Below, piece by piece: positions 37,222 through 43,366 of a DNA stretch of 63,966 bases. The translations under genes were made by a program, and so were the position numbers. The notes below the pieces were generated by a model. The model did not search any database. It had not been told where the DNA came from and saw only the letters and a program-made list of their open reading frames with translations. Positions within the stretch are counted from its first letter, which is position 1. Every line of letters begins with the position of its first letter. The stretch is taken from NCBI GenBank assembly GCA_902795135.1, contig CADBJW010000007.1, forward strand, positions 1-63,966, read 5' to 3'. Source of the stretch: an uncultured Eubacteriales bacterium (GTDB taxonomy: Bacteria > Bacillota > Clostridia > Peptostreptococcales > Anaerovoracaceae).

Positions 37222-37713
37222 TTAGATAATCACTGCCAGCCTTGCTTTTGCAATTTCACAAAGCAGCAGATTCCATTCTTTGCCTGTATGATCCAATATG
37301 GTAACCAGATAGTCATCGGGGTCTTCTGATTTCTCAAAGGCTTTCAGAACGCCCTGGATTTTCTTGGTCCCGTCTTTGCCCTTATAAAGTTTGACCTCCA
37401 CTTCTTCGCCCAAAAACCGTTCGTAGTGTTCCGGTTTCAGCAGCGGACGGTCCATTCCGGGAGAACTGACCTCCAGATAATAATTGCCTGCGAAAGGATC
37501 TGCTTCATCCAGCTTGCCGCTGAGATAACGGCTTACTTTCTCGCAGTCTTCCGTACTGACATATCCACTCCGGTCAGCCAGATCGATGTAGACGCGCAAA
37601 AACCAATCGCGACCTTCCTTCACAAATTCACAATGGTACAGCTCGTACCCGTTTTCCTCCAGAAAACCGGCAAGCGACTCTTTTGTAACGTCTATGATTG
37701 CACCTTTTGCCAT
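37222..37713 (-). CDS. rimP: Ribosome maturation factor RimP
   Basis: This 163-residue protein shows the RimP two-domain pattern: GYELYHCEFVKEGRDWFLRV, DCEKVSRYLSGKLDE, YYLEVSSPGMDRPL and the C-terminal SH3-like barrel ending EIAKARLAVII. It assists 30S subunit maturation. It heads the rimP-nusA-infB operon behind a promoter at 37789-37817 and a terminator-like leader hairpin. Confidence 0.95.
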   Translation of the reverse strand: MAKGAIIDVTKESLAGFLEENGYELYHCEFVKEGRDWFLRVYIDLADRSGYVSTEDCEKVSRYLSGKLDEADPFAGNYYLEVSSPGMDRPLLKPEHYERFLGEEVEVKLYKGKDGTKKIQGVLKAFEKSEDPDDYLVTILDHTGKEWNLLLCEIAKARLAVII

Positions 37714-37819: not shown

Positions 37820-40800
37820 CTAGAAAAAGCTGATCTGAGCCGTTTCCGGAAGCCCTTCCAGCACTCCGTGTTCCCTTAATTCCTCCAGTACGGTCTTGTT
37901 GACTTTGCCTCGGTCACAGACATCTTCCACGGTGTCATAAGGGCGCTTCTCATAGCCGGCGGCCAAAGCTTTTGCAGCCCCCTCGCCCATGCCTTCGATG
38001 GCGTTAAACGGCAGTAGGACCTTCCCCTCATGGGTCATGAACTTCAGCGCATCGGAAAGACCAAGTCGCGCCGGATGGAACTGGTATCCCCGGGCATACA
38101 TTTCGTAGGCAACTTCCAGTACGATCAGGTCGGCCTCTTCCTTTTTGGAGGCTTCATTGCCCTTCCCGAGGATTTCATCGATCCGATCCTCTACGGCCTG
38201 CTGTCCGGCCAGTATAACTTTGGAATCGAAGTTCGATACTTTGGTTGTGAAGTAAGCTGCATAGAACTCCACCGGGTAGTAGACCTTGTAATAGGCTTCC
38301 CGCATGGACATGACAACGTAAGCCACCGCATGGGCCCGCGGGAACATATACTTGATCTTCTTACAGGAGCCGATGTACCAGTCCGGAACATCGTGCTCAC
38401 GCATGAGCGCTTCTTCGTCTTCCGTCAGGCCTTTGCCCTTTCTTACTTTTTCCATGATCTTAAAGGAATTGCTGTCCGGAAGTCCATGCTTACGGAGATA
38501 ATTCATAATGTCGTCACGGGTGGCGATGGCTTCCCGCATGGTCGTGACTCCATTGACGACCAGATCCTGCGCATTGCCTAGCCATACATCCGTACCATGG
38601 GACAGACCGGATATCCGGACCAGTTCTTCGATGGTCGTCGGCTGTATGTCATCCAGCATCTGCCGGACAAATGGTGTCCCGAACTCGTGGATCGCATAGC
38701 TTCCGTGTTTGAACCGGTAATTCGGATCTTTGATATCCAGGCCCTCTGTTCCGATGAAAAGCGTCATGACCTTTTCATCTTTCAAAGGTACCGTCAGCGG
38801 ATCGATCCCAGTCATCTCCTTTAGATGATGGATCATAGACGGAATATCGTGTCCCAGTATATCAAGCTTCAGCAGGTTTTTATCGATGGAATGGTAATCA
38901 AAATGGGTTGTAATAATATCCGATTTCACATCGTTCGCCGGATGCTGGATGGGACAGAATTCGTAGATTTCATGTCCCTTCGGAACGATAATTACGCCGC
39001 CTGGATGCTGTCCGGTCGTTCGTTTGACGCCTTCGCATCCATGACCCAGTCGCTCCACTTCGAATCGATTGGCTGTGGTTCCCTTCTCTTCAAAGTATTT
39101 CGCAACAAACCCAAAGGCCGTATTGTCTTTGATTTTTCCGATGGTGCCGGCTTTAAAAACGTTTTCCGCGCCAAAAATCTCTTCTACATATTTCTGCGCT
39201 TTTCCCTGATATTCTCCTGCGAAGTTCAGGTCAATATCGGGTTCTTTATCTCCATCAAATCCCAGGAATGTTTCAAATGGAATGGTAAATCCTTCTTTGT
39301 TGTATGGCGTTCCACACACAGGACACACTTTGTCCGGAAGGTCAACGCCGCAGTCATACTCGCCGGTTTCATCCCACTCGATGTGTTTGCAGTTCGGACA
39401 AAGGTAATGCGCCGGAAGCGGATTTACTTCCGTGATTCCGGATGCCGTCGCCGCGAAGGACGAACCGACGGAACCTCTGGAGCCAACCAGATAGCCTTCT
39501 TCCAGTGACTTTTGAACCAGCATCTCCGCAGAACGATACATGACGGCGTATCCATTTGTAATGATCGAGTTCAGTTCTTTGTCCAATCGGTCTTTGATGA
39601 CTTGCGGAATGGGATCCCCATACATATCCTTGACTCTTTTGTCGCAGATTTCCCGGAGATACTCTTCTGCACCCTCAATATGCGGCGGGAACTTTTCATC
39701 GGGAACCGGCTGGAAGGACTCGATCATATCCGCGATGCGATTGGTGTTTTCGATGACCACTTTATGAGCGGTCTCTTCGCCCAAATAAGCGAATTCATCC
39801 ATCATCTCTTCGGTGGTTCTGAAATAGAGACCTTCCCCGCTCTCCGCGTCTTTATAGCCCTGTCCGGCCATAATGATTTTGCGGTAGATGGCTTCTTCCG
39901 GGTCAAAATAATGGGCATCACAAGTAGCGCACACCGGTTTGCCGTACTTCTCGCCAAGCTCCACGATTCGCCGGTTAAAATTCCGAAGATCTTCCTCATT
40001 CTTTACAATGCCATCCCGCACCATAAAGCGGTTGTTGATAATCGGCTGTATTTCCAAATAGTCGTAGAAGTCTACGATTTTCTTAAGTGTCTCTTCATCG
40101 GCCCCGTTTCGCAGTGCCCGAAACAGTTCTCCTGCTTCACAGGCAGACCCCAGAATGAGCCCTTCTCTGTATTTCGAAAGAACGGATCGTGGCATTCTCG
40201 GCCGTTTATAAAAATAATTCAAATGAGAGAAGGATACGAGTTTGTAGAGATTCTTAAGACCCGTTGTGTTCTTTGCCAGAAGAATAATATGATTCGTCCC
40301 TCTGGCTTTGTAATCGATGGTCCCGTCCTCTGCAATGAGTCCCTCATCTGGAAGCAAGTACCCCTCACATCCATACAGGATTTTGATGTTCTTTGCCGCA
40401 TGTGACGCATCCGGGAAGGATTGTACGACCCCATGATCCGTAATGGCAATAGCCTTATGACCCCATTTTTCTGCGGTCTTGACCAGATGCTCCGTATCAT
40501 TGAGTCCGTCCATGGCGCTCATTTTCGTGTGGGCGTGCAGTTCTACACGTTTTTCCGGATAATTGTCACATCTCTGGGGGAGGTCCACTTTTTCCAGACT
40601 GTCTGCCATGACGGTCAGACATCTGTCATAGCTGTCCCACTGCGCCTGACCCTGGACTTTAATGCCGCTTCCTACGGACAAATGGGTCTGGATATCCTCC
40701 CATTTTTCTTTGACCACAAAGCATTTGACACAAATGCTGGTTTTTTTATTCGTTACATAAATGGATACGAGCTGACTGTCGTTTTTGGTGGTTCTGGAGT

Positions 40801-41290
40801 CCAGATTGAACACTTCCCCTTCAAAAGCAACCGTGCCGCTCTCTGTGGTGATTCTCTCTATGGGCGTCAGCTCCGCATTGACAGCCTTTCCCATAATCAC
40901 GTTGCCTTTGACCGGAATATATTTCCTGCCTCTGCCGCGCCGCGGCTTCCCGTTATACGGTTCCTGCGACCCGGAAAACGAGGCTGCCGGTTTTTCTTTG
41001 GACGGGGCGTTTGCAGCGCGTTCTCTTTTTCGGACTTCCATTTCGCTGGCCTTAACATCTTTGTACCGAAGGTCCATATCGACCAGGTTAATGCCGTCTA
41101 TCTTGCGGATCAGGTCGGTTTTGACTAGTTCCATCGTATCCGGAGACAATATAAGATTAAGCTCCACCTCCAGCTTGAGCGCCTTGCTCTTGCTGTCGAT
41201 GGAAGCTTTCTTTAATTCGACATTTAAGTCGTCCGCCGTAAAATGATCCAGTTTTGAAAAATCGATGTAGCTTTCTAGTATGCTCCGCAT
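37820..41290 (-). CDS. polC: DNA polymerase III PolC-type alpha subunit lacking the 3'-5' exonuclease domain
   Basis: The protein has 1156 residues. Visible parts are the N-terminal domain (1-120), an OB fold (about 150-235), the PHP domain (LHAHT 251-255, ITDHG 283-287, YGCEG 306-310, then NHIILLAKN 333-341, CDAHY 457-461), and the polymerase core with a zinc cluster (CPNC 631-634, CPVC 656-659) and catalytic PDIDLNF (684-690). In usual PolC an exonuclease domain of about 170-200 residues splits PHP just after the YGxE motif. Here only about 22 residues stand there. The replicase identity is certain; loss of built-in proofreading is a direct reading of the sequence. It lies after ispG as usual. 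Confidence 0.95.
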   Translation of the reverse strand: MRSILESYIDFSKLDHFTADDLNVELKKASIDSKSKALKLEVELNLILSPDTMELVKTDLIRKIDGINLVDMDLRYKDVKASEMEVRKRERAANAPSKEKPAASFSGSQEPYNGKPRRGRGRKYIPVKGNVIMGKAVNAELTPIERITTESGTVAFEGEVFNLDSRTTKNDSQLVSIYVTNKKTSICVKCFVVKEKWEDIQTHLSVGSGIKVQGQAQWDSYDRCLTVMADSLEKVDLPQRCDNYPEKRVELHAHTKMSAMDGLNDTEHLVKTAEKWGHKAIAITDHGVVQSFPDASHAAKNIKILYGCEGYLLPDEGLIAEDGTIDYKARGTNHIILLAKNTTGLKNLYKLVSFSHLNYFYKRPRMPRSVLSKYREGLILGSACEAGELFRALRNGADEETLKKIVDFYDYLEIQPIINNRFMVRDGIVKNEEDLRNFNRRIVELGEKYGKPVCATCDAHYFDPEEAIYRKIIMAGQGYKDAESGEGLYFRTTEEMMDEFAYLGEETAHKVVIENTNRIADMIESFQPVPDEKFPPHIEGAEEYLREICDKRVKDMYGDPIPQVIKDRLDKELNSIITNGYAVMYRSAEMLVQKSLEEGYLVGSRGSVGSSFAATASGITEVNPLPAHYLCPNCKHIEWDETGEYDCGVDLPDKVCPVCGTPYNKEGFTIPFETFLGFDGDKEPDIDLNFAGEYQGKAQKYVEEIFGAENVFKAGTIGKIKDNTAFGFVAKYFEEKGTTANRFEVERLGHGCEGVKRTTGQHPGGVIIVPKGHEIYEFCPIQHPANDVKSDIITTHFDYHSIDKNLLKLDILGHDIPSMIHHLKEMTGIDPLTVPLKDEKVMTLFIGTEGLDIKDPNYRFKHGSYAIHEFGTPFVRQMLDDIQPTTIEELVRISGLSHGTDVWLGNAQDLVVNGVTTMREAIATRDDIMNYLRKHGLPDSNSFKIMEKVRKGKGLTEDEEALMREHDVPDWYIGSCKKIKYMFPRAHAVAYVVMSMREAYYKVYYPVEFYAAYFTTKVSNFDSKVILAGQQAVEDRIDEILGKGNEASKKEEADLIVLEVAYEMYARGYQFHPARLGLSDALKFMTHEGKVLLPFNAIEGMGEGAAKALAAGYEKRPYDTVEDVCDRGKVNKTVLEELREHGVLEGLPETAQISFF

Positions 41291-41295
41291 ATTTA

Positions 41296-42351
41296 TCAGT
41301 CTTTCCCGTCTTCTTCCATGGCCTTTGCAAGCCGATATAATTCTTCTGTGATTTCGTCTTCCCTGACTTTTTTGACGACTTCTCCCTTTACGAAAATCAG
41401 TCCTTCCCCTTTACCGCAGGCGACGCCCAGATCTGCACCTTTTGCTTCTCCCGGTCCGTTAACCGCACATCCCATAACCGCGATCTTGATTGGACCCTGC
41501 AGATCCGCCACGCGTCGTTCCACGCTTTCGGCGATTCGTTCCAAATCCACTTCTGTCCTGCCGCAAGTCGGGCAGGATACGATTTCCACGTTGCTTTTTC
41601 GAAGTCCGATGGCCTCTAATAGCAATCTGGCGAAGATGACTTCTTCCACTGGATCTGCCGTAAGGGACACCCGAATGGTATCGCCAATGCCTTCCAAAAG
41701 CAACGCGCCGATGCCTGCCGCAGATTTGATTTTCCCCATGGACGGAGTTCCGGCTTCCGTCACGCCAATGTGAAGCGGCCGGTCACTGCGCTCATGGACA
41801 ATCTTATATGCCTCGTAGTTCATGGCAACATCGGAGGACTTCAGTGAAATGACGATGTCATCAAAATCGAATTCCTCCAAAAGCTGTACATTTCGTAACG
41901 CGCTCTCCGCCAATCCCTGGGCGGTAACCCTTCCGTATTGTTCCAGAATATCCCGTTCCAGCGACCCGGAATTGACGCCTACCCGAATGGGGACGTGACA
42001 GGCTTTTGCTTTCTCGACAACGGCCTGTACCTTCTCTCTGGAACCGATATTACCCGGGTTGATGCGTATTTTATCTGCCCCCGCGTCCATTGCTGCAATG
42101 GCAAGCCGGTAGTCAAAATGGATGTCCGCAACGAGTGGAATCTGTGCCTTTTGCTTGATCTTATGAAAGGCCTCCGCAGACTCCATGTCCGGCACGGTGA
42201 GACGCACGATCTCGCAGCCGGCTTCTTCCAGGCGCCGGATCTGCTCCAGACTGCCGCTAACGTCAGCGGTTTTCGTGTTGCACATGGACTGTATGCTTAC
42301 CGCAGCATCTCCTCCGATGGTGATATTTCCAACTTTAACTGATTTTTTCAT
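41296..42351 (-). CDS. ispG: 4-hydroxy-3-methylbut-2-enyl diphosphate synthase (IspG)
   Basis: This 351-residue enzyme starts MKKSVKVGNITIGGDAAVSI and contains the TIM-barrel landmark RINPGNIGSREKV and the C-terminal iron-sulfur ligands CPTCGRTE and MGCAVNGPGEA. It converts the cyclic diphosphate MEcPP to HMBPP in the MEP pathway, and works with ferredoxin or flavodoxin. The ATG at 42351 was chosen from family alignment, 4 bp after the rseP stop; a longer frame would add 13 residues inside rseP. Confidence 0.96.
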   Translation of the reverse strand: MKKSVKVGNITIGGDAAVSIQSMCNTKTADVSGSLEQIRRLEEAGCEIVRLTVPDMESAEAFHKIKQKAQIPLVADIHFDYRLAIAAMDAGADKIRINPGNIGSREKVQAVVEKAKACHVPIRVGVNSGSLERDILEQYGRVTAQGLAESALRNVQLLEEFDFDDIVISLKSSDVAMNYEAYKIVHERSDRPLHIGVTEAGTPSMGKIKSAAGIGALLLEGIGDTIRVSLTADPVEEVIFARLLLEAIGLRKSNVEIVSCPTCGRTEVDLERIAESVERRVADLQGPIKIAVMGCAVNGPGEAKGADLGVACGKGEGLIFVKGEVVKKVREDEITEELYRLAKAMEEDGKD

Positions 42352-42355
42352 AGTT

Positions 42356-43366
42356 TTAGAAAATCGGTATGATAAACCGCAATACATCATTGAATGTAAC
42401 GTAAATCATCAATGCAAACAGCAGACAAATGCCGATGAAGTGGATTTTGCCTTCTGTTTCGTCTGAAACCCGCTTGCCCGTAAAGAGCCGGATCACTAGG
42501 AACAAAAGCCTTCCCCCGTCTAACGCCGGGAATGGCAGCATGTTGATAATGGCCAGGTTCAGGCTGAGGAGCGCTGCCAGATAGATGACATACAGCATGC
42601 CTGATTTCGCCGCCTGGTTGGTGGCGTAAACGATTCCCACCGGTCCGCTTAGTTCTGAAACCGAGACGTCACCTGTGAAAAGCTGTCGCAGGGTGTCATA
42701 CATCATGACTGTCATGCGTCCTGTATTGACAAAACCTGCGCTCACAGACTGGCCAACACCTCGCTCCATGACCGGCGTAATTCCGATCATTTTTCGCTTT
42801 GCGTCCTGATCGTATTTTAACTGAGTCGTTATGACTTCTTCTTTGCCATTGCGCAGAACCGTGATTTCTGCCGTGTCTTCCTTGCTGTATCCGATTGCTT
42901 CGATCAAATCGTCCCATTCATCGATTTTAGTCCCATCGACTGCGACGATTTCATCACCGGAGCGGATACCGGCTTTCTCCGCCGGAGACCCTTCCCCGAT
43001 CTGTTCGATGGTTGTGGTAGCCTGTCCCACACAAAAGGCAATGACAATCAAAAGCACGACGCAGGTCAGCAGATTCATAAAGGATCCTGCCGCAAGCACG
43101 CAGGCTCTCTGCCAAGCCGGCTGATTGTTAAATGCCCTCGGTTCTTCGGAATCTTCGTCTTCCCCTTCCATGGCACAATATCCGCCGATTGGAAAAGCTC
43201 TGACTGCATATAAGGTCTCGCCCTTCTGCTTCTTAAAAATGGCAGGTCCCATTCCGATGGCGAACTCATTCACCTTGACCCCGCAAGCCTTTGCAACGAT
43301 AAAATGTCCCAGTTCATGAACAAATATCAGCAAACAAAAAATCAGTATTGCGTAAATAATCGTCAT
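42356..43366 (-). CDS. rseP: RIP metalloprotease RseP
   Basis: This 336-residue site-2 protease has the zinc motif HELGH (17-21) in its first membrane segment, a periplasmic-side PDZ domain (about 120-190, GSPAEKAGIRSGDEIVAVDG), and the second metal motif in NMLPFPALDGGRLL. It cleaves membrane-bound anti-sigma factors and signal peptides. Its start overlaps dxr by 4 bp. Confidence 0.96.
   Translation of the reverse strand: MTIIYAILIFCLLIFVHELGHFIVAKACGVKVNEFAIGMGPAIFKKQKGETLYAVRAFPIGGYCAMEGEDEDSEEPRAFNNQPAWQRACVLAAGSFMNLLTCVVLLIVIAFCVGQATTTIEQIGEGSPAEKAGIRSGDEIVAVDGTKIDEWDDLIEAIGYSKEDTAEITVLRNGKEEVITTQLKYDQDAKRKMIGITPVMERGVGQSVSAGFVNTGRMTVMMYDTLRQLFTGDVSVSELSGPVGIVYATNQAAKSGMLYVIYLAALLSLNLAIINMLPFPALDGGRLLFLVIRLFTGKRVSDETEGKIHFIGICLLFALMIYVTFNDVLRFIIPIF

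Follow-up and report, generated by a model that had tools for sequence, protein, structure and literature searches.

A PolC-type replicase without its DEDD exonuclease domain and with an intact PHP metal site in an uncultured Eubacteriales bacterium

Introduction

PolC enzymes that lack the exonuclease (Exo) domain have been known as a kind since 2013, when Timinskas et al. reported that 6% of PolCs are without Exo. These PolCs occur in Clostridia and Negativicutes, the single exception being an extra copy of PolC in Thermotogae; in systems that combine PolC with DnaE1, an arrangement described at the time as experimentally uncharacterised, the share of PolCs without Exo is 16% (PMC3919608). 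The DEDD exonuclease of PolC sits in a loop beside the PHP metal site; the proofreader of mycobacterial (Mtb) DnaE1 is its own nine-ligand PHP site, and in Gka PolC one PHP residue is altered and that site is without exonuclease activity (PMC5636811). The G. kaustophilus PolC structure 3F2B had its exonuclease removed for crystallisation (PMC12592400), and an S. aureus PolC construct without the N-terminal and exonuclease domains polymerises fast, with a kpol of 330 per s (PMC3656037). The N-terminal subdomains of PolC have been named NI and NII and are related to domain V of tau (PMC12926913). Here we describe a PolC of the exonuclease-less kind, its distribution among relatives, and the candidates for proofreading in its host.

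Results

Identity and domain layout of the polC gene

The window, a stretch of 63,966 nucleotides, forms contig 7 in a draft genome of 2.08 Mb (39 contigs, 91% complete). It encodes a 1156-residue protein with an ATG start (Table 1) that is assigned to the PolC type by two curated models, NF001688 (1435.7 bits, cut-off 873) and TIGR01405 (1318.9 bits, cut-off 1043.45). Pfam families PHP, DNA_pol3_alpha, finger and HHH_6 all matched over their cut-offs. The best solved match was 3F2B, which aligns in one stretch with residues 143–1156; support for the OB region comes from this alignment, the Pfam OB match itself being under cut-off. The polymerase catalytic motif PDIDLNF, noted as intact in the initial annotation, begins at residue 684 and is unchanged across the aligned PolC rows, and the C-terminal QISFF is likely a clamp-binding motif, for which the published consensus is QL[S/D]LF (PMC3919608). 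Upstream of polC lie ispG, rseP, dxr, a cdsA-like gene (match under cut-off), uppS, frr and pyrH, and downstream a rimP-like gene, nusA and infB. Such neighbours are the usual setting of polC.

Table 1. Features of the polC locus, with positions in the window and residue numbers of the encoded protein.
Feature	Position	Strand	Evidence
polC, exonuclease-less PolC-type DNA polymerase III alpha	37820..41290	(-)	TIGR01405 and NF001688 over cut-off; PF00929 absent
Shortened N-terminal region, residues 1–100; first subdomain retained, second absent, join at about residues 86–92	40991..41290 (join ~41010–41035)	(-)	Alignment; lengths before PHP
OB-fold region, about residues 146–240	40571..40855	(-)	PF01336 weak, under cut-off; single-stretch 3F2B alignment from residue 143
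PHP domain, about residues 248–465, nine metal ligands intact (HHDHEHCDH)	39896..40549	(-)	Pfam PHP 250–409; ligands from alignment
Short loop, residues 311–332, where the exonuclease insertion usually sits in PHP	40295..40360	(-)	Spacing of PHP ligands 5–6; junction sequences
Polymerase motif PDIDLNF, residues 684–690	39221..39241	(-)	Sequence; identical in every aligned row
C-terminal QISFF, residues 1152–1156	37823..37837	(-)	Sequence; clamp-binding motif by published consensus
ispG, upstream neighbour	41296..42390	(-)	TIGR00612 over cut-off
rimP-like, downstream neighbour	37222..37713	(-)	RimP models match best in NCBIfam, under cut-offs

The exonuclease domain is missing from the PHP insertion place

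The usual hallmark of PolC, a DEDD exonuclease inserted in PHP, is absent from this protein: PF00929 gave no match up to E=10 in a Pfam search, and the motifs YGCEG (residues 306–310) and NHIIL (from residue 333) are separated by only 22 residues, as had been read from the sequence beforehand. The PHP domain had also been taken to span these two motifs, which is incorrect, as the Pfam PHP match covers residues 250–409 and both motifs flank the insertion site inside it. With OB, PHP, polymerase and HhH regions otherwise present, the protein fits the exonuclease-less PolC variant. In an alignment of 148 rows, from which six fragments were removed, the spacing between PHP ligands 5 and 6 was 13–35 in exonuclease-less rows (n=60, with 24 in the window PolC) and 209–219 in exonuclease-bearing rows (n=82). 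Linker sequence is retained on either flank of the insertion place, for example IDYK..GTNHI in both the window PolC and an exonuclease-bearing PolC of the same family (G181), and the excision therefore looks clean.

The PHP metal site is intact

All nine PHP ligands are present by alignment (H252, H254, D261, H286, E309, H334, C384, D458 and H460), in agreement with the initial annotation that the PHP histidines and aspartates are preserved, and the window PolC thus has the nine-ligand site that characterises PHP-exonuclease polymerases of the Mtb DnaE1 type. Both solved Bacilli PolCs have Asn where the window PolC has D458. The full set of ligands was found in 60/60 exonuclease-less rows, 82/82 exonuclease-bearing rows and a further 13/13 exonuclease-less rows (155/155); because exonuclease-bearing PolCs retain them too, intact ligands do not separate the two forms. 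Conservation of PHP relative to the polymerase core likewise did not differ between exonuclease-less and exonuclease-bearing rows, and so carries no weight for or against a takeover of proofreading by PHP.

A second deletion in the N-terminal region

The shortfall against the approximately 1430 residues of a typical PolC had been attributed to the missing exonuclease. This holds in part: the exonuclease covers only about 190 of the roughly 275 missing residues, because an N-terminal subdomain is also absent. The window PolC has 247 residues ahead of PHP, compared with 354–376 in its seven nearest relatives (L004–L008, L063 and L064), and the absent second subdomain, roughly 100 residues long, accounts for most of the remaining shortfall. 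Similarly short N-termini (227–271 residues) occur in 11 of 51 exonuclease-less rows from the host family, the ten besides the window PolC coming from other genera; a twelfth such row (L018) begins at a contig end and was left out of the count. Among the sampled members of the host genus, the deletion was seen in the window genome alone.

Distribution in the family, order and class

An order sample of 198 genomes includes 54 from the host family (f1), the window genome counted. Within these 54, PolC is exonuclease-less in 50, for all of which the loop length was measured, exonuclease-bearing in two (G159 and G181) and absent from two (G125 and G189). The short form is thus the ordinary one among close relatives, an outcome that the initial annotation had itself named as one that would remove its novelty, and the kind had been reported in 2013 (PMC3919608). 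The nearest named loci, from a Bacillota bacterium (L063) and an uncultured Eubacterium sp. (L064), are 72–74% identical to the window PolC. Outside the host family, the PolCs among the matches listed align only from about residue 278–332 onward and lie mostly in frames of 1395–1496 residues, as expected of exonuclease-bearing enzymes. In a class sample, exonuclease-less PolC was found in 18 of 128 genomes and 7 of 54 families (f1, f16, f20, f22, f55, f56 and f59), with states called from the matches; PolC was matched only in fragments in several genomes and not at all in seven. Sequences retrieved for 13 of the 14 exonuclease-less genomes outside the host family confirmed the state in each.

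Several observations arose alongside this survey. The two family members with no PolC (G125 and G189; L215 and L216) have DnaE only, and each encodes a separate PF00929/DnaQ-like protein in frames of 224 and 207 residues. The PolC frame of G059, a genome listed as one contig, is split into two overlapping pieces of 1062 and 229 residues (G059:C1:1239517-1242572; L167), either a true break or a sequencing error. Four genomes of family f15 (G200, G233, G280 and G301; 0.8–1.1 Mb, 99–100% complete) gave no PolC match above the level of DnaE. Finally, G145, a genome of family f4 in the same order, and Metaclostridioides mangenotii (L104) share one polC sequence, with no difference in the protein or across a 3000-base core of the DNA; this match assigns the order to Peptostreptococcales, and the host family is probably Anaerovoracaceae.

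Loss versus ancestral absence

In a tree of 86 PolCs, built by a quick method with the exonuclease columns excluded, the exonuclease trait requires six changes, at least four of them forced by well-supported (starred) branches. A more careful tree of 34 rows places the exonuclease-bearing G159 as the first branch in the host family and, with support of 89/82 (a branch that is not starred), nests the other exonuclease-bearing member, G181, within exonuclease-less rows; constraining the exonuclease-less rows to one clade was not rejected (p-AU 0.152). The exonuclease domains of G159 and G181 are mutually nearest and are joined next by that of G019 from family f9 (support 93 each), a grouping that fits vertical inheritance. 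Secondary loss, recurrent across Clostridia, is accordingly a well-supported reading of the phylogenies, and within the host family the trees may reflect one loss or several.

Other proofreading candidates in the genome

The proposal that proofreading has moved to a separate DnaQ-like subunit found no support in the window genome, where PF00929 gave no matches at E<=1 (of 14 known genomes used as a control, 12 were positive); a profile built from 12 clostridial PolC exonucleases, searched without a positive control, also gave none at E<=10. Across the order sample, PF00929 matched at E<=0.01 in 15 of 54 genomes of the host family and in 144 of 144 others, a contrast that largely states one fact twice, because many matches outside the family are the PolC exonuclease itself. 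Considering only genomes with exonuclease-less PolC, PF00929 found nothing in 39 of 50 host-family genomes or in 9 of 14 belonging to other families, and some PF00929 protein was present in the remaining 11 and 5, respectively. A DnaQ acting in trans is unlikely because PF00929 is missing here and in those 39 family members; as the window genome is 91% complete, a dnaQ could lie in unassembled sequence.

Among PF00929, PF01612 and PF13482, one DEDD-type candidate exceeded its cut-off in the window genome: a YprB-like RNase_H_2 protein containing the motif DIETTG (L145:1393-2451; G000 contig 11), which matched no NCBIfam model at 1e-10. PF13482 is present in 24 of 25 genomes of the host genus and in 14 of 16 order relatives with exonuclease-bearing PolC, three of these 14 solely through the PolC exonuclease. 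Because relatives that have the PolC exonuclease encode such proteins too, the YprB-like protein appears to be no special partner of PolC, and it was set aside as a proofreader. PolA was also set aside, its PF01612 match being under cut-off and its exonuclease region containing no D-x-E by eye.

The window genome has a single DnaE, a full-length protein of 1193 residues that exceeds the NF005298 cut-off and, by eye, contains the same nine PHP ligands and a clamp-like GQISLF motif. By the NF005298 match and these ligands, the genome pairs PolC with DnaE1; DnaE3, by comparison, is without the nine PHP ligands (PMC3919608). The MutS family PF00488 was found in 198/198 genomes of the order sample.

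Discussion

We propose, with modest confidence and from sequence comparison, that this chromosomal PolC belongs to a lineage that cleanly lost its DEDD exonuclease, and that the PHP domain of PolC and/or DnaE1 proofreads, with MutS behind it. The exonuclease would have been excised in frame from the PHP loop, leaving a PolC that would still act as a replicative polymerase alongside DnaE1. The 3'-5' proofreading would then be supplied, in the manner of mycobacterial DnaE1, by the zinc-type PHP of PolC and/or DnaE1, and MutS-based mismatch repair would serve as backup. Of the three options in the initial annotation (proofreading lost, moved to a separate subunit, or done by PHP), PHP proofreading appears the best supported, with PHP in PolC and DnaE1 as the most likely seat of proofreading. 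We found no report, in the literature examined, of exonuclease activity from a PolC PHP site. Repeated loss of the DEDD domain may have been possible in Clostridia because their PolC PHP is intact, whereas the two solved Bacilli PolCs have an altered one; Clostridia would thus begin with spare proofreaders, making the DEDD domain dispensable. More tentatively, as a claim that may well fail, most family members could replicate without any DnaQ-type (PF00929, DEDDh) proofreader, leaving PHP in PolC and in DnaE1 as the sole replicative proofreaders, and clostridial loss could be recurrent because the PHP of PolC still works.

An idea raised in PMC3919608 is that DnaE1 is the accurate main replicase and PolC a secondary one, so that loss of the exonuclease is cheap. 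The full-length DnaE1 of the window genome, with its NF005298 match, intact PHP ligands and GQISLF motif, is consistent with such a role, as are the 2 of 54 family members in which PolC is absent and DnaE present; however, PolC is retained in the other 52, its polymerase motif is constant across aligned rows and its gene neighbourhood is conserved, and we consider this explanation rather unlikely. We regard as improbable a genuine reduction of replicative proofreading compensated by mismatch repair: the 39 of 50 exonuclease-less family members with no PF00929 protein and the ubiquity of MutS would suit it, but the PHP ligands are retained in every row checked, and MutS, being equally widespread in exonuclease-bearing relatives, is no marker of the exonuclease-less group.

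Proofreading of PolC in trans by a separate DnaQ-like or YprB-like exonuclease is very improbable given the empty PF00929 search of the window genome and the occurrence of PF13482 in exonuclease-bearing order relatives, although the DIETTG-containing protein is encoded here and PF00929 proteins occur in 11 of 50 exonuclease-less genomes of the host family and 5 of 14 of other families. An assembly error as the source of the missing domain has a negligible probability. The draft to which the window belongs has 39 contigs, but the same form is found in 49 other sampled family members, including three listed as one contig each (G059, G155 and G179), and its presence in 50 of 54 family genomes rules out such an error at the exonuclease place, as the initial annotation had argued from the clean join. 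This evidence from relatives applies to the exonuclease place only; the N-terminal deletion, seen in the window genome alone among the sampled members of its genus, may still be an assembly error.

If PHP does proofread here, the replicases with a zinc-type proofreader would include PolC as well as mycobacterial DnaE1, and the repeated loss of the magnesium-type exonuclease would show what allows such a swap. Exonuclease-less lineages would then offer natural experiments on proofreading by the PHP of PolC, and a family with both exonuclease-bearing and exonuclease-less members makes PHP proofreading directly testable.

The window PolC resembles the exonuclease-less PolCs of Timinskas et al. 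(PMC3919608) in the absence of Exo from PHP, the DnaE1-like partner and the conserved PHP metal site. The host family, the lack of other DnaQ-like proteins and the joint loss of the second N-terminal subdomain and Exo do not appear in the accessible portion of that report, and no prior account of the near-fixed loss in a family, the accompanying lack of PF00929 or the joint N-terminal deletion was met in the main texts of the open-access literature, as far as these were accessible. The engineered PolCs of G. kaustophilus (3F2B) and S. aureus have the same remaining domains as the window PolC; they differ in being laboratory-made, the G. kaustophilus PHP has Asn at the eighth ligand, and the window PolC retains part of the N-terminal domain. 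Like Mtb DnaE1 (PMC5636811), the window PolC has a nine-ligand PHP and no DEDD domain in the polymerase, with a loop of 22 residues at the PolC exonuclease place compared with 29 in Mtb DnaE1. Unlike Mtb DnaE1, the enzyme described here is a PolC with a predicted PHP activity, and it is found in a host that has mismatch repair, which is absent in mycobacteria.
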